Part shown: piece after piece, positions 3,345-15,736 of the stretch
Layout of the letters: the number at the start of each line of letters is the position of its first letter
How positions within the stretch are numbered: position 1 is the stretch's first letter
Assembly (NCBI GenBank): GCA_035540635.1
Contig: DATLGH010000021.1
Span: forward strand, 1 to 64,000
Source: Egibacteraceae bacterium
GTDB lineage: Bacteria > Actinomycetota > Nitriliruptoria > Euzebyales > Egibacteraceae
Length of the DNA: 64,000 nucleotides
Direction of reading: 5' to 3'
Program-made: the position numbers and the translations under genes
Notes under the pieces: model-generated
Databases searched by the model: none
The model's input: the letters and a program-made list of their open reading frames with translations, nothing else
Told to the model about the DNA's origin: nothing

Positions 3345-3423
3345 GGTCCAGTCATCGTCGCCCGCCAGCACTTCCTTTAGCGCTGCGGTGCCCTGCCGCC
3401 CAAGCGAACGGGTGTGGCCGCGG

Positions 3424-3639: not shown

Positions 3640-3808
3640 CCCTTGGTTCCTCTCGCATGCGCCGGAGGGCCGGCCCTTCCCCGGCGACGGCCCGCCCCTC
3701 CGCCGCTCTCGTGTGTGGTGGACGCCCCTTTGCCAGGCTCGTGCGCACCGGCACATCCTGAACACTAGGCTCACTACCCGTCAAGCACAACGCCCACGAC
3801 GCACGACG

Positions 3809-3839
3809 AAGGGGAGGAGCCCAGTGGGCTCCTCCCCTT
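3809..3839 (-). terminator. Strong hairpin after pilA
   Basis: A perfect 14-bp inverted repeat (arms 3809-3822 and 3826-3839) with a 3-nt loop, 44 bases beyond the pilA stop. There is no T-tract on either side, as in many actinobacterial terminators. It would end pilA transcripts and allow abundant pilin without equal expression of the downstream genes. Confidence 0.8.
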
Positions 3840-3882
3840 GTCGCGCGACGGCGTACGTGTGCTGTACGCGGTGCTCGGCTGA

Positions 3883-4293: not shown

Positions 4294-4306
4294 GCACCTC
4301 CGGTGC
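4294..4306 (-). promoter_or_regulatory. Hairpin sequestering the pilA ribosome binding site
   Basis: On the minus strand GCACC-GGA-GGTGC folds into a 5-bp hairpin that contains the GGAGG SD (4297-4301). A second TGCACC copy about 10 nt further upstream could pair with the same GGTGCA. This is a plausible translational expression platform for the adjacent aptamer. Which state exposes the SD cannot be decided from sequence. Confidence 0.6.
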
Positions 4307-4326
4307 GCTTGACGGTGCAAGACACT

Positions 4327-4430
4327 CCAGCCGCAGCGCTTCGCGAGGCAGCCCGGCGGACCGATCAATGAGGACGGTCCCGTGGCTTTGCGTCCCCGCC
4401 TTACGGCGGGTTTGCCTTTTCTGCGTCTGG
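4327..4430 (-). promoter_or_regulatory. Cyclic-di-GMP class I riboswitch (GEMM) in the pilA leader
   Basis: The pilA leader carries the GEMM core: AAAAGGCAAACC, a hairpin CCCGCC-GTAA-GGCGGG with a GNRA tetraloop, then GGGACGCAAAGCC. The outer helix is CCAGACGCAG (4421-4430) with CTGCGGCTGG (4327-4336), 9 of 10 bases paired. A second arm has stem GGACCG/CGGTCC. The base matching the ligand-contacting G20 of the Vibrio Vc2 aptamer is G, which favours cyclic-di-GMP over the cGAMP variant; this alignment is from memory. The aptamer ends about 26 nt before the pilA SD, so pilin synthesis should respond to cyclic-di-GMP. Confidence 0.9.
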
Positions 4431-4513
4431 TTCCCTTGCTTACCCTCAGTGCGTCGTCACTCCCCGCCCCGCCCTTGAGCCGCACGGAAGAAATCATCGG
4501 TGAATGCCGGGGA

Positions 4514-4546: not shown

Positions 4547-5008
4547 ATGGCGCTCCTCGACGAGGCGGAGGGCAGGCGCTGGCTGGCGGCCGCGCGTGAG
4601 CACCTCCGTGCGGGCCGGCACGCGCGAGCCGGGGGCTTCCATGCGCACGCGGTCCTCGCCGCGGAGCAGGCGGCCCAGTGCGCGCTGAAAGCCATGCTGC
4701 GCGCGACGGGCAGCGTGGATAGTGCCCGCGGCCATTCCCTGCCCGAGCTGCTGTCCGCCGCGGCGCGGCGCTCGGGGTTCGTGGTCGACGAACGGTTGGC
4801 GGATCGCCTCGGGGAGCTCTCCGCCCACTACCAGCCCACTCGTTACCCTGACGCCCTGGCGTCCGGTACGCCCGGCGACCACTACGGGACTGAGGCCGCA
4901 GAACGTTTTCTCTCTGCGGCTGGCGAGATCATCGACGCGGCGGCCAAACATCTCGATCGGCTGCGTGTGGCGGCGCAGGAGGATGGCGATGACACCCACG
5001 CCGGCTGA
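4547..5008 (+). CDS. HEPN-domain protein of an MNT/HEPN pair
   Basis: 153 residues, almost all helix, matching the sacsin-type HEPN domain (PF05168-like). Markers are an N-terminal Trp-rich helix, FHAHAVLAAEQAAQCALKA, a GHSLPELL turn and YQPTRYPDAL. Proteins of this kind pair with minimal nucleotidyltransferases. Some pairs are toxin-antitoxin systems in which HEPN is an RNase and its partner AMPylates it. The clear R(x4-6)H RNase motif is not evident at the usual place, so toxicity is uncertain. The start is set by homology and by a -10 box 6 nt upstream; there is no SD. It overlaps the nucleotidyltransferase gene by 20 nt and points opposite to all pilus genes. Confidence 0.82.
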   Translation: MALLDEAEGRRWLAAAREHLRAGRHARAGGFHAHAVLAAEQAAQCALKAMLRATGSVDSARGHSLPELLSAAARRSGFVVDERLADRLGELSAHYQPTRYPDALASGTPGDHYGTEAAERFLSAAGEIIDAAAKHLDRLRVAAQEDGDDTHAG

Positions 5009-5375
5009 GGTCATCGCCCGCCGGCGGGCCGAGCAGCAGGCGCTGGTCGCACGCGCCGCCCGTTTCGTCGTCGCGCTCGACGAGACTCTCGTCGTCCGCG
5101 GCGCCGCGGTGTTCGGCTCCGTGGCGAGGGGCGACTTCAACGACCGCAGCGACATCGACGTGCTCGTCGTCGCCGAGCGCCTCCCCGAGGATCCCGCCGA
5201 GCGCCAGCTTGTCGTCGGCTCGCCCGCGCCGGGCGGCGTGGAGGCGGTGGTCTGGAAGCCAGAGGAATGGCGTGACCGGCGGGCCCGCCGCGATCCCGTG
5301 GCGGTGGATGTCGAGGCTCACGGGATCTGGCTGAGCGGTTCCATGGAAGACCTCGAGGGCGGCGCCGGGCGGTGA
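4989..5375 (+). CDS. Minimal nucleotidyltransferase (MNT) partner of HEPN
   Basis: 128 residues. The DNA polymerase beta-type motif GSVARGDFNDRSDIDVLVV (about 41-59) gives the GSxxRG helix and the two metal-binding Asp residues of SDIDV. Members transfer nucleotides, and in MntA/HepT pairs the enzyme AMPylates the HEPN toxin. AGGAGG (4977-4982) lies 6 nt before the chosen ATG at 4989; an ATG two codons earlier abuts the SD and is less likely. The gene overlaps the HEPN gene by 20 nt and ends 1 nt from the convergent pilC stop. This tight fit between pilC and pilA suggests an insertion into the pilus locus. Confidence 0.88.
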   Translation: MTPTPAEVIARRRAEQQALVARAARFVVALDETLVVRGAAVFGSVARGDFNDRSDIDVLVVAERLPEDPAERQLVVGSPAPGGVEAVVWKPEEWRDRRARRDPVAVDVEAHGIWLSGSMEDLEGGAGR

Positions 5376-6610: not shown

Positions 6611-8167
6611 TTACGCCTTGCCGCACAGGCGGTTGAAGTCGGCGACGTTGTTGCACTTCTCGAGGGCTGCGGAATGGCTGACCTTGCCCGCGGCGACGAG
6701 GTTGGCGAGGGACTGGTCCATGGTCACCATGCCGTGGGCCTTGCCGGCCTGGATCGCCGAGTACATCTGGTGGGTCTTGCCCTCGCGGATGAGGTTGCGG
6801 ATCGCCGGGGTGGCGACCATGACCTCGCACGCCGCCACCCGCCCGTGCCCGTCGGCGGTCTTCAGCAGCTGCTGGCAGACGACGCCCTGCAGGGCCCCGC
6901 CGAGCATGACGCGGATCTGCTCCTGTTGCTCGGGAGGGAACACGTCGACGACGCGGTCGACCGTCTGCGGCGCGTCCTGGGTGTGCAGCGTGCCGAACAC
7001 GAGGTGACCGGTCTCCGCGGCGGTGAGCGCCACCTGGATGGTCTCGAGGTCGCGCATCTCGCCGACGAGGATGACGTCGGGGTCCTGGCGCAGCACGTGC
7101 TTGAGCGCCTGGGCGAAGCTCAACGTGTCCGTGCCGAGCTCACGCTGGTTCACCACCGACCGCTTGTGGCTGTGGAGGAACTCGATCGGGTCCTCGACCG
7201 TCATGATGTGGGCGGCCCGCTCCCGGTTGATGACGTCGATGAGCGCGGCGAGCGTCGTGGACTTGCCCGACCCGGTGGGACCGGTCACGAGCACGAACCC
7301 CCGGGGCAGGTGCGCGAAGTTCACGATCTGCGGGGGGATCCCGAGGTCCTCGATGGACTTGATCTCGAACGGGATGACGCGCATCACCGAACCGATCGCG
7401 TCCCGCTGCTGGAAGACGTTCACGCGGAAGCGGGCGAGCTTCGGCACCGCGTAGGAGACGTCGAGCTCGAGCTCGTTCTCGAACCTCTCCCGCTGCTTCT
7501 GCGTGAGGATGCCGTAGAGCATCTTCTGCAGCTCGTCGGAGGTCATGACGGGGTAGCCGTCGAGCGGCTGCAGCTCGCCGTTGACCCGGATCATGGGCGG
7601 GACCCCGGCGGTGAGGTGGAGGTCCGAGCCGCCGTTCTTCAACAGCTCGGCGAGGACCGCGTCGAGGTCGACGGCCTGCTCCTGCTCGAAGGCGAGCAGG
7701 CCCGGTGCCGGCTCGGGGGCCGCCGGCGGCGCCGGGGGGTGGTGGTCGAGCGCCTCGATCGCCGCCGCGAGGTCGCTGCGGACGGCGAGCGCCGGCACCG
7801 CCTGCAGTCCGGTCAGGGACGTCACCTGGTCGAGGGCCGTGGTGTTGCTGGGGTCGGCCATCGCGACGATCACGTCGTGGTCCTGGCCGAACGCGACCGG
7901 GAGCGCGCCGAGCTCACGGATCACCTCCGGCGGCAGCAACGCCGCGGCCCGCGGGTCGACCGCACCGGGCGAGGTGTCGGCGAAGGCCATGCCGAGGTGG
8001 CGCGCGACGGTCGCGACGACCTGGGCCTCGGTCACCGCCCCCATCGCCACGAGGGTGCGGACGAGGGACGCGCCGTCGCCGCCGGTGGCGTGCGCGCTGG
8101 CGGTGCGCAGGGTCGGCTCGTCGACGAGTCCCTGGGCGAGGAGGAGCTGACCGAGTCCTATGCTCAT
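6611..8167 (-). CDS. pilT: Retraction ATPase PilT with an extra N-terminal domain
   Basis: 518 residues. Residues about 170-518 are a full PilT: LLKNGGSDLHLTAGVPP, Walker A GPTGSGKST (296-304), Walker B LVGEMRD (367-373), and the retraction signature AIRNLIREGKT (455-465) found in PilT but not PilB. The first 140 residues are unusual for PilT. They resemble the MshEN/GspE N-terminal domain that PilB carries and are joined by a Pro/Ala-rich linker (143-155). The Arg of the MshEN cyclic-di-GMP motif (RLGxxL) is missing in both repeats, so binding is doubtful. It lies 39 nt after pilB and 10 nt before pilC. Confidence 0.94.
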   Translation of the reverse strand: MSIGLGQLLLAQGLVDEPTLRTASAHATGGDGASLVRTLVAMGAVTEAQVVATVARHLGMAFADTSPGAVDPRAAALLPPEVIRELGALPVAFGQDHDVIVAMADPSNTTALDQVTSLTGLQAVPALAVRSDLAAAIEALDHHPPAPPAAPEPAPGLLAFEQEQAVDLDAVLAELLKNGGSDLHLTAGVPPMIRVNGELQPLDGYPVMTSDELQKMLYGILTQKQRERFENELELDVSYAVPKLARFRVNVFQQRDAIGSVMRVIPFEIKSIEDLGIPPQIVNFAHLPRGFVLVTGPTGSGKSTTLAALIDVINRERAAHIMTVEDPIEFLHSHKRSVVNQRELGTDTLSFAQALKHVLRQDPDVILVGEMRDLETIQVALTAAETGHLVFGTLHTQDAPQTVDRVVDVFPPEQQEQIRVMLGGALQGVVCQQLLKTADGHGRVAACEVMVATPAIRNLIREGKTHQMYSAIQAGKAHGMVTMDQSLANLVAAGKVSHSAALEKCNNVADFNRLCGKA

Positions 8168-8206
8168 GTGGGGAACCGTCGGCGCGCCGCCGCGCCGCCT
8201 TGAGCG

Positions 8207-9892
8207 TCACACCACCACACGCGCGATCTCCTCCAGGGTCGTGAGCCCCAGGAGCACCTTCATGAGGCCGTCCTCGCGCAGGCTGCGCATGCCCTGGGCA
8301 CGGGCGGTCTTGGCGACGTCCTCCGTAGACGCGCGCGCGACGATGAGCCGCTCGATCTCCTCGCTGACGAGCATGACCTCGTGGACCGCGAGACGGCCCC
8401 GGTAGCCGGTGCCGCTGCAGCTCGCGCACCCGACGGACCGGTAGAGCAGCGGCAGCTCCCGGTCGTCGACCGCAAGCCCCGCCGCGCGCAGCTCGTCCCA
8501 GGTCGGCTGGTAGGGCTCCTTGCACTTCCCGCACAGGCGGCGCGCGAGGCGCTGAGCGAGCACGCAGTCGACCGCTGAGGCGACGAGGAAGGGGTCGATC
8601 CGCATCTCGGTGAGGCGCGTCACGGCGGAGGGGGCGTCGTTCGTGTGCAGCGTCGACAGGACGAGGTGGCCGGTGAGCGCGGCCTCCATCCCGATCTGGG
8701 CGGTCTCGTGGTCGCGCATCTCGCCGACGAGCACGACGTCGGGGTCCTGGCGGAGGATGGAACGCAGCGCCGAGGGGAACGTCAGCCCGCCCTTCGGGTT
8801 GATCTGGACCTGGCTGATGCCCGCCAGGCGGTACTCGACAGGGTCCTCGACGGTGACGCAGTTCACCTCCGGCCGGCTGATGATGTTCAGCGTCGCGTAC
8901 AGCGTCGTCGACTTTCCCGACCCCGTCGGCCCCGTGACGAGGATCATGCCGTAGGGCTTCGTGAAGCTGCGCTCGTAGCGCGCGTAGTTGTCGTCGTGGA
9001 AGCCCAGGTCGGACAGCCGCAGGAGCACCGACGACTTGTCGAGGATGCGCATGACGACCTTCTCGCCCGCCACCGTCGGCAGGGTCGACACACGCAGGTC
9101 GATGCTCTTGCCGCCGGTCTTGAGGCTGATCCGCCCGTCCTGGGGGATACGCCGCTCGGCGATGTCGAGCTCGGCCATGATCTTCAGGCGACTGACGACG
9201 CCCGCGTGGATCTTCTTGCTCTGCGTGGTGACCTCGTGCAGGACGCCGTCGACCCGGTAGCGCACCCGCAGGTCGTGGTCCTGCGGCTCGATGTGGATGT
9301 CGGAGGCGCGGTCCTGGACCGCCTGGGCGATGAGGGCGTTCACGAACTTCACGATGGGCGCGTCGTCGACGACCTCGTTCAGCGCGTCGAGGTCGTCACC
9401 GCTCTCGTCGCCCTCGAGCTGGTCGACCACGTCGAGGACCGAATCGCCCGACCGGGCGTAGCGGTCGATGGCGGCCGCGATGTCGGTGCGGGTCGCCACG
9501 ACCGGATGGACGTCACGGTCGGTGCTCGTGCGGATGTCGTCGAGGGCGAGCACGTTCGACGGGTCGCTCATCGCCACGACGAGGCGCCCGTCGGGGTCGT
9601 AGGCGATCGGCAGCACCCCGTAGCGACGGCACAGCTGGGCCGGCAGGCTCGCCGCGGCGAGCGTGTCGACCTGCCGGTCGGTGAGGTCGACGAACTCGAG
9701 CCCGAGCTGCTGGGCGAGCGCCGCGACGAGACCGGCCTCCGTGCACATCCCGAGCTCGATGAGGACCCGCCCGAGCGACTTCCCGGCGCGCTGCTGCTCC
9801 GCGCGCGCCCGGTGCAGGTCGGCCGGGGAGAGAAGGCCCGCGGCGAGGAGCACCTCGGCGAGCTGCTGCTGCTGGGTCGTCGAGGCTGGCAT
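8207..9892 (-). CDS. pilB: Pilus extension ATPase PilB
   Basis: 561 residues. The MshEN domain (about 8-140) holds two copies of the LxxxLxxxGL...LxxALxxQ pattern. The catalytic core has Walker A GPTGSGKST (321-329), an Asp box, Walker B LVGEMRD (388-394) and a His box. A zinc site is formed by Cys454, 457, 489 and 492, as in GspE/PilB. It powers pilin addition at PilC. The second MshEN repeat keeps LG but has Ser where cyclic-di-GMP binders have Arg, so binding is uncertain. The start ATG at 9890-9892 overlaps the previous stop by 1 nt. Confidence 0.96.
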   Translation of the reverse strand: MPASTTQQQQLAEVLLAAGLLSPADLHRARAEQQRAGKSLGRVLIELGMCTEAGLVAALAQQLGLEFVDLTDRQVDTLAAASLPAQLCRRYGVLPIAYDPDGRLVVAMSDPSNVLALDDIRTSTDRDVHPVVATRTDIAAAIDRYARSGDSVLDVVDQLEGDESGDDLDALNEVVDDAPIVKFVNALIAQAVQDRASDIHIEPQDHDLRVRYRVDGVLHEVTTQSKKIHAGVVSRLKIMAELDIAERRIPQDGRISLKTGGKSIDLRVSTLPTVAGEKVVMRILDKSSVLLRLSDLGFHDDNYARYERSFTKPYGMILVTGPTGSGKSTTLYATLNIISRPEVNCVTVEDPVEYRLAGISQVQINPKGGLTFPSALRSILRQDPDVVLVGEMRDHETAQIGMEAALTGHLVLSTLHTNDAPSAVTRLTEMRIDPFLVASAVDCVLAQRLARRLCGKCKEPYQPTWDELRAAGLAVDDRELPLLYRSVGCASCSGTGYRGRLAVHEVMLVSEEIERLIVARASTEDVAKTARAQGMRSLREDGLMKVLLGLTTLEEIARVVV

Positions 9893-11202
9893 CACTGCTC
9901 CTGCCATCGCGTGACGAAGTACTGGCCGGTCGAGATGCCGTCGAGCAGGTCCTCGTCGTAGTGGAACTCCCAGCCGCCCTGGTTGAGCACCACCCGGCAC
10001 GCGAGCGCCCCGTAGATCTCCACCTGCGCGTTGGACTGCTGGTTGCCGCACGAGGCGTCGGGGGCGTAGATCGCCGCGGCGATCTTCGCGTGCTGGCGGA
10101 TCTGCACCGCGGCGAGCACGTTGCTGCCGGACGCGGTCTCGTCCTTCGCGAGGGTGAAGATCTGCAGGCGCCGGGCGGCCGGGCGGTTCGGGGCGGCGGG
10201 GAACCCGCCAGCGCAGGCGTTGCAGGCCACGCGCACCGCCCCCTCGACCTTGATGCGGTCGCGCACGACGACGACGAGGCCGTTGTCCGCGGTGACCGTG
10301 GTGGGCAGCCGCGTGTTGACGTCGAACACGAGCTCCCCGAAGCAGTGGTAGGCGCCGATCTCGGGGTGCGAGGCGGGGCTGGTCGGCGCGAACACCGCCT
10401 GTCGGTTGCTGCCCGATCCGGTGGCATGGTCAGACGCCTTCCACGTCGGGAAGCCCGCGCACCCGGCGAGGAGATCCTCGACGAGTGGGACCGACCCACG
10501 GATGTCGAGCGGCTCGTCGACGTTCTCGCGGAAGGGCGTCCGGCAGAACTGCGAGGTCGCCTGGGTGCACCGGGCGGGGCCGTTGTTCTCCGGGTTGGCC
10601 CAGTCGTGCACCCGCACACGGTCCGCGTAGTTCGACGTCGCGCTCGACGAGCCGACCTCGATGTTGCCGTTCGAGGCGATGATCCCGAAGCAGCTGATCG
10701 ACGACGGCGGCGAGCAGCGTGTCTGCGTGCGGCTGTTGTACGAGTCGGCCTTGTTGCCGCCCGTGAAGTTGATCCCGAGGTGCGTGGCAAGCGACGCGTT
10801 GAAGATCGGCCGGTCGGTGAGCTGCGCGACAACCGTCCGTTCCGCCTCGTTGGGGCCCGTCCCGGTCGAGGTCACGACCCATTGCCCAGAGGGTTGCCGG
10901 GCAGCGGTCCAGGCGTAGTCGTAGCCGTTCGCCGTGCCGCTGCCCTGGGCGGTCGCTCCCGTCACGAGGTGGTTGTTCACCCGGAAGGTCGCCTCCTCCA
11001 CGCCGGCTTCGGCTGCATGGAGGACGGTCGTGAACTCGTTGTCGAAGCGCGTGGAACGCTGATCGGCGTTTGTGCGGGCGAACACCACCGTGGTCAGCCC
11101 CGCCATGATGATGGTCACGAGCAGCGCGAGGGGGACCGACCCGCGGTCGGAGGCGAAAGCCCGACGAGGCGCGCTGAGCAGCGGGGAAGGTCGTTCAGGC
11201 AT
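9892..11202 (-). CDS. PilX-like pilus-associated membrane protein
   Basis: 436 residues. One N-terminal hydrophobic helix (about 22-43, after DRGSVPLALL) is followed by a stretch around AAEAGVEEATFRV that recalls PilX N-terminal domains. A long polar, Cys-containing ectodomain follows and ends in a region rich in beta strands. The helix lacks the Gly|Phe and Glu+5 of true prepilins, so it is not an obvious prepilin peptidase substrate. Its place between PilB and two minor prepilins suggests a tip or priming role. It overlaps the upstream minor pilin gene by 8 nt and pilB by 1 nt. The function is inferred from context. Confidence 0.65.
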   Translation of the reverse strand: MPERPSPLLSAPRRAFASDRGSVPLALLVTIIMAGLTTVVFARTNADQRSTRFDNEFTTVLHAAEAGVEEATFRVNNHLVTGATAQGSGTANGYDYAWTAARQPSGQWVVTSTGTGPNEAERTVVAQLTDRPIFNASLATHLGINFTGGNKADSYNSRTQTRCSPPSSISCFGIIASNGNIEVGSSSATSNYADRVRVHDWANPENNGPARCTQATSQFCRTPFRENVDEPLDIRGSVPLVEDLLAGCAGFPTWKASDHATGSGSNRQAVFAPTSPASHPEIGAYHCFGELVFDVNTRLPTTVTADNGLVVVVRDRIKVEGAVRVACNACAGGFPAAPNRPAARRLQIFTLAKDETASGSNVLAAVQIRQHAKIAAAIYAPDASCGNQQSNAQVEIYGALACRVVLNQGGWEFHYDEDLLDGISTGQYFVTRWQEQ

Positions 11203-12990: not shown

Positions 12991-13064
12991 GGACGGGCGC
13001 TCCGGGTCAGGGTCGGTCGTGTCCCTCTGGCTATCGGCCGTTCCCGCCTCCCGGTTGAGCGACG

Positions 13065-15637: not shown

Positions 15638-15736
15638 GGGATCCTCGGGGTGCTCGGGGGGAGTCCCCGAGAGCATCGGCAGGTGCCCGCCCGGCCTTGA
15701 CCCCGCCTGCTGCCGCCTCGTCGGCGGCTCAGGAGG

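Follow-up and report, generated by a model that had tools for sequence, protein, structure and literature searches.

A GEMM riboswitch leader and a flagellar/WhiG-type promoter candidate before the major pilin gene of an Egibacteraceae bacterium: possible control by cyclic di-GMP at two levels

The question raised by the locus described here is whether one second messenger, cyclic di-GMP (c-di-GMP), is consulted twice for the synthesis of a single protein. The gene is pilA, encoding a major type IV pilin, and it lies on the minus strand of a 64 kb stretch of an Egibacteraceae bacterium (hereafter the window; it belongs to contig C21, and the draft genome comprises 3.46 Mb). Its leader holds an aptamer of the GEMM (c-di-GMP-I) riboswitch class with canonical ligand contacts, and such aptamers are conserved before pilA in related genomes. 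A flagellar/WhiG-type promoter signal recurs before most GEMM aptamers of the class and the phylum, and the genome carries genes for WhiG and RsiG. We consider it probable that the pilA leader is a GEMM riboswitch placed behind a promoter of this type, and that c-di-GMP acts on the pilin first via RsiG-WhiG and then via the leader RNA.

The aptamer and the promoter signal before it

When the full window was scanned against Rfam 15 with cmscan, the single match was the GEMM aptamer of the pilA leader (Table 1). It scored 69.2 bits with RF03167 (c-di-GMP-I-GGC; gathering score 59, E-value 2.8e-14, full length 1-80 of 80), and RF01051 matched at the same site with 67.0 bits against a gathering score of 35. 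The full aptamer described in an initial annotation of this leader is thus present over the complete model length, together with its GNRA hairpin (CCCGCC-GUAA-GGCGGG) and the quoted letters GGGGACGCAAAGCC that follow. The check with Infernal against RF01051 that the annotation had proposed gives a match well above the gathering score, with the correction that RF03167 is the top-scoring family. The distance of about 26 nt given there between the aptamer and the Shine-Dalgarno (SD) sequence is right only when CUGCGGCUGG, down to 4327, is counted as part of the aptamer; from the Rfam end at 4343 it is 41 nt. No second copy of the GEMM aptamer was found in the 3.46 Mb genome.

Leaders of this kind have been found repeatedly in related species. 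In the order, 16 of 30 genomes carry the aptamer, with 22 copies in all, and the class Nitriliruptoria has the aptamer in 36 of 66, the score of the window aptamer being among the top of the class. Of the 49 class leaders, 18 are immediately followed by a type IV pilin gene, in a layout like that of the window; the remaining ones, judged by eye, mostly precede genes for exported or surface proteins. At the level of the phylum, RF01051 matches occur in 154 of 396 sampled Actinomycetota genomes, and further pilA leaders with GEMM were seen in other families, including one each in Solirubrobacterales, Nanopelagicales, Micrococcales and unclassified Actinomycetota metagenome-assembled genomes. GEMM riboswitches are thus common in Actinomycetota, and their occurrence in an actinobacterium, to which the initial annotation had drawn attention, is not unusual.

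That earlier account recognized the riboswitch and overlooked the promoter candidate before it. When the leaders were compared side by side, CTCAAG-N-GCCGAT recurred about 25 nt upstream of the aptamers; the consensus of flagellar/WhiG promoters is TAAA at -35 and GCCGATAA at -10 (PMC8325347). We scored leaders against TMAA-N15/16-GCCGATA, a pattern of 11 positions in which the C option of the -35 element was taken from the scored leaders and the remaining positions are independent, and found that 34 of 47 class leaders reach at least 9/11, when dinucleotide shuffles give a mean of 0.74 and a maximum of 4 in 300 sets. This class signal is restricted to spacers of 15-16 with a peak at 16. Among 70 further phylum leaders, mostly from other classes, 44 score at least 10/11 versus 0.18 expected from shuffles. 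In the pooled set, scores of at least 9/11 are found upstream of the aptamer in 85/117, on the antisense strand in 1/117, further upstream in 1/73 and downstream in 2/113. The promoter candidate of the window scores 8/11, and those of most relatives score 9-11/11 at equal spacing and place.

A looser pattern, TMAA-N16-GMCGAY, was used for counts in the window and the genome. It has five matches in the window, all on the minus strand and each just before the start of a pilus gene; because the whole genome has 54, about 0.2 would be expected in the 12.3 kb pilus stretch, where the five are seen. The matches before the pilus ATPase gene and pilM are doubtful because they lie too near the start codon.

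WhiG, RsiG and the choice of sigma factor

WhiG of this genome scores 270 bits to TIGR02479, its best match in PDB is the Streptomyces WhiG of the RsiG complex (6pfj_A, 329 bits), and its gene adjoins rpsB, tsf, pyrH and frr (neighbours named by eye). RsiG was found with the Pfam profile PF22802; it has two motifs and aligns along its length to the RsiG of 6pfj, the test motif being E(X)3S(X)2R(X)3[Q/H](X)3D in one or two copies. The notion that RsiG is missing, which came from a DNA pattern with GRID fixed that gave 0 matches in 30 genomes, was rejected with the profile match; the motif here reads QARID or HGQLD. The genome has eight GGDEF domain matches. A flagellar/WhiG-type promoter match also precedes a diguanylate cyclase gene (L198, G000:C25:4282-4307), as has likewise been reported for Rubrobacter.

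RsiG is the anti-sigma factor of WhiG and, in this phylum, holds it when loaded with c-di-GMP. The pair is reported to direct pili in Rubrobacter (PMC8325347), and if it works here as described there, RsiG would free WhiG at low c-di-GMP so that the pilus genes would be started. The competing explanation that survives best is that an ordinary c-di-GMP riboswitch on pilA is transcribed by FliA or another sigma factor, without a role of RsiG-WhiG, and that the likeness of the promoters is a general signature of the flagellar/pilus regulon. WhiG and flagellar sigma factors have a common promoter specificity (PMC8325347), and this genome does have a second FliA-like sigma factor (169 bits), which could read the same promoters and whose contig carries FlgK-like and FlhF-like sequences, read here as flgK and flhF. 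These facts weigh against two-level control, as do several others. The -10 element of the window is poor (GACGACG, 8/11), and about 15% of leaders score as high after shuffling; motif 1 of RsiG is intact and motif 2 has L for Q; and folding of the leader with the aptamer helix P1 forced gave no distinct ON or OFF state. What speaks for RsiG-WhiG is its distribution: RsiG is present in 143 of the 154 GEMM-bearing genomes versus 104 of the 242 without GEMM (odds ratio 17) and in 33 of 36 GEMM families, the per-family count being the sole adjustment for phylogeny, which is itself a weakness of the argument. In addition, flagellar genes are absent from Rubrobacteria and Coriobacteriia (PMC10746217), yet RsiG-WhiG is reported to direct the pili of Rubrobacter. 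We thus hold transcription by FliA or another sigma factor to be unlikely, and WhiG, rather than FliA, presumably reads the pilA promoter.

The wider proposal, that c-di-GMP-I riboswitches of Actinomycetota stand as a rule inside the WhiG regulon, with pili and surface genes read twice by c-di-GMP through a protein at initiation and an RNA in the leader, seems to us evenly poised between true and false. Arrangements in which a c-di-GMP riboswitch leads a pilin gene are already known. For the coupling of GEMM riboswitches with an RsiG-WhiG-type promoter, we found no report in the open-access literature, where searches combining RsiG and riboswitch gave reviews and one unrelated study. If the coupling is real, part of the role of the WhiG switch outside sporulation would be explained, and the pilA leader would offer a case, open to direct testing, of a gene checked at two levels by a single second messenger.

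Ligand contacts and folding of the leader

Residues are numbered according to Vc2 and were mapped by our own motif alignment. The contact residues, C92 included, are functionally important (PMC9049102), and the window aptamer has G20, A47 and C92. With these residues, the conservation before pilA in relatives and the eight GGDEF matches of the genome, the view that the pilA leader holds a putative c-di-GMP-class riboswitch with canonical specificity is well supported, and the aptamer is likely to bind c-di-GMP.

A GEMM relative with an altered ligand, either of the "GGC" variant family or of the type sensing cyclic GMP-AMP (cGAMP), might be considered because the top Rfam family is c-di-GMP-I-GGC, a name that presumably denotes the G at position 47 of the model. 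The window aptamer reads GCAAA where the RF03167 consensus has GCGAA. It therefore lacks the G in place of A47, though its RF03167 score passes, and its filing under "GGC" rests on the overall score because its A47 is the canonical residue; its RF01051 score is nearly equal. An A at position 20 is linked to cGAMP sensing. In a survey of 119 aptamers, in which automated reading at position 47 failed for some unusual sequences, G20 and A47 were found in most and A20 in six, and the window aptamer with its G20 is not one of these. We regard an altered ligand as very improbable for the window. Aptamers with A20 do occur in Actinomycetota (L243, which precedes pilA, and L231, L233, L238 and L098), and these may have cGAMP-type specificity.

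Least credible of all is that the aptamer has decayed to a remnant, with the SD hairpin alone fixing a constant pilin level: the promoter of the window is weaker than those of its relatives, and a HEPN-nucleotidyltransferase gene pair absent at this place in a sister species lies just upstream, yet the aptamer is of full length, has one of the highest scores in its class and keeps every contact residue, and the insertion is upstream of both promoter and aptamer.

The initial annotation had closed the aptamer with an outer helix of 9/10 pairs; this CCAGACGCAG/CUGCGGCUGG pairing can be drawn, but it consumes GCAG, the 5' strand of P1, and in the folding models it is probably a competitor of P1. 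Forcing P1 in the leader fold costs 8.7 kcal/mol. The annotated 5-bp hairpin around the SD was recovered (GCACC-GGA-GGUGC, -9.4 kcal/mol, z -2.2). It has the same letters in three relatives (G002, G017 and G018), a fourth (G020) has UCCUC-ACG-GAGGA instead, and it was not found in the sister species G001. As for its suggested function as a translational switch, the hairpin is real, but folding with P1 forced neither clearly opens nor closes the SD, which is predicted to be partly occluded both with and without forced P1. The hairpin and its retention in three relatives make it reasonable to suspect that the SD is sequestered, and a translational mechanism is plausible but unproven.

In the scheme that we favor, the nascent leader would fold the aptamer, P1 and CUGCGGCUGG would compete for GCAG, and the outcome would set the access of ribosomes to the pilA SD, in one direction or the other. 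Some relatives bear on the sign. Several low-GC ones have an intrinsic terminator between aptamer and gene, and in L205, L209, L217 and L227, pilA leaders of other families that represent two pilA families, the 3' arm of the terminator and the 5' strand of the aptamer share 9-10 nt of complementarity, so that the ligand would be an OFF signal in those leaders. This suggests that the riboswitch may be of the OFF type in some terminator-bearing relatives. If the riboswitch of the window has this sign, pilA would be turned off by c-di-GMP at each of the two levels, as by a double lock; if it is instead ON, as that of Clostridioides difficile pilA1, the two layers would work against one another, with pilin highest at intermediate c-di-GMP, as in a band-pass filter.

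A ligand-driven release of the SD through pairing of CUUGC with GCAAG, which lies where the transcript is predicted to begin, was considered and rejected: this helix has 8-9 bp in G002, G017 and G018 (p <= 0.015 each), whereas the 5 bp of the window are alone not significant, being no better than chance, and folding is unclear. A further set of GEMM leaders within the class, in front of genes other than pilA (L094, L099, L108, L109, L110, L117 and L149), shares GACGGAGC ahead of the aptamer and GCUCCGUC behind it, which together form an 8-bp enclosing helix.

The pilus cluster and comparison with known systems

Table 1. Positions in the window of pilA, its leader elements and promoter matches of the pilus cluster
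Feature	Position	Strand	Details
pilA, major type IV pilin, 135 amino acids	3883..4290	-	GTG start 4290, stop 3883; Pfam N_methyl 28.5 bits, over cut-off; EEGFTLIELLVVVIIIGILAAIAIP
Flagellar/WhiG-type promoter candidate	4453..4478	-	-35 TCAA 4478-4475, N16, -10 GACGAC 4458-4453; 8/11
GCAAG, predicted transcript 5' end	4435..4439	-	complementary to CUUGC 4321-4317; in 8 leaders of the family
c-di-GMP-I (GEMM) aptamer	4343..4424	-	RF03167, RF01051; P1 = G4424-C4343, C4423-G4344, A4422-U4346, G4421-C4347
G20 equivalent (contacts G-alpha)	4416	-	G; motif alignment
A47 equivalent (stacks between the two guanines)	4389	-	A; RF03167 consensus has G
C92 equivalent (pairs with G-beta)	4348	-	C; model alignment
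CUGCGGCUGG	4327..4336	-	predicted pairing with CCAGACGCAG (4430-4421), competing with P1; free minimum-energy fold
CUUGCACC	4314..4321	-	predicted pairing with GCAAG (4439-4435) or SD-region GGUGCA
SD hairpin	4294..4306	-	GCACC-GGA-GGUGC; SD GGAGG 4301-4297
Strong hairpin after pilA	3804..3842	-	-34.4 kcal/mol, z -7.0; U tract absent
Promoter candidate TCAA-N16-GCCGAT	15675..15700	-	37 nt before the Roadblock/DUF4388 gene heading the pilus cluster
Promoter candidate TCAA-N16-GCCGAT	13033..13058	-	42 nt upstream of a minor pilin gene
Promoter-like match, doubtful	8178..8203	-	10 nt upstream of a pilus ATPase gene
Promoter-like match, doubtful	3354..3379	-	9 nt before pilM

The closest named relative of the window pilA is in an Egibacteraceae genome. 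The strong terminator assigned after pilA is a very strong hairpin indeed, but it has no U tract and was unreported by the terminator scan. Between pilC and the pilA promoter lies the toxin-antitoxin-like pair of HEPN (PF05168) and nucleotidyltransferase (PF01909) genes, 4553-5375 on the plus strand; in the sister species G001, where the pair is missing at this place, the pilC stop is directly before the pilA promoter. Both pilus ATPases (6611-8167 and 8207-10051, minus strand) have MshEN domains, whose c-di-GMP contact motif is RLG (PMC5013675). A third c-di-GMP input through these domains was rejected, since neither motif of either ATPase keeps RLG (QLA/SLG and GLG/SLV, read by eye).

Among known systems, the c-di-GMP-I (GEMM) riboswitches of RF01051/RF03167 (clan CL00126) are alike in sequence, three-helix fold, the G20/A47/C92 residues, the site in a 5' leader and the control of surface or pilus genes; the window aptamer differs in having the canonical A47 and yet scoring best with the G47 "GGC" model, and in standing behind a flagellar/WhiG-type promoter candidate. 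In Rubrobacter RsiG-WhiG (PMC8325347), the type of promoter, a candidate here, the presence of WhiG and RsiG and the predicted pilus gene targets are the same, but that account is without mention of a riboswitch, and the RsiG of the window genome has two motifs, the second imperfect. The Cdi-2-4 riboswitch of C. difficile pilA1 (PMC6200980) likewise leads a major type IV pilin; it is, however, a c-di-GMP-II aptamer of an unrelated class and a transcriptional ON switch, and the RsiG-WhiG layer is absent. The Geobacter pilM cGAMP riboswitch (PMC9262584) is also a GEMM aptamer before a pilus gene, with strand competition against the aptamer, whereas it has another ligand, works by termination and belongs to another phylum.
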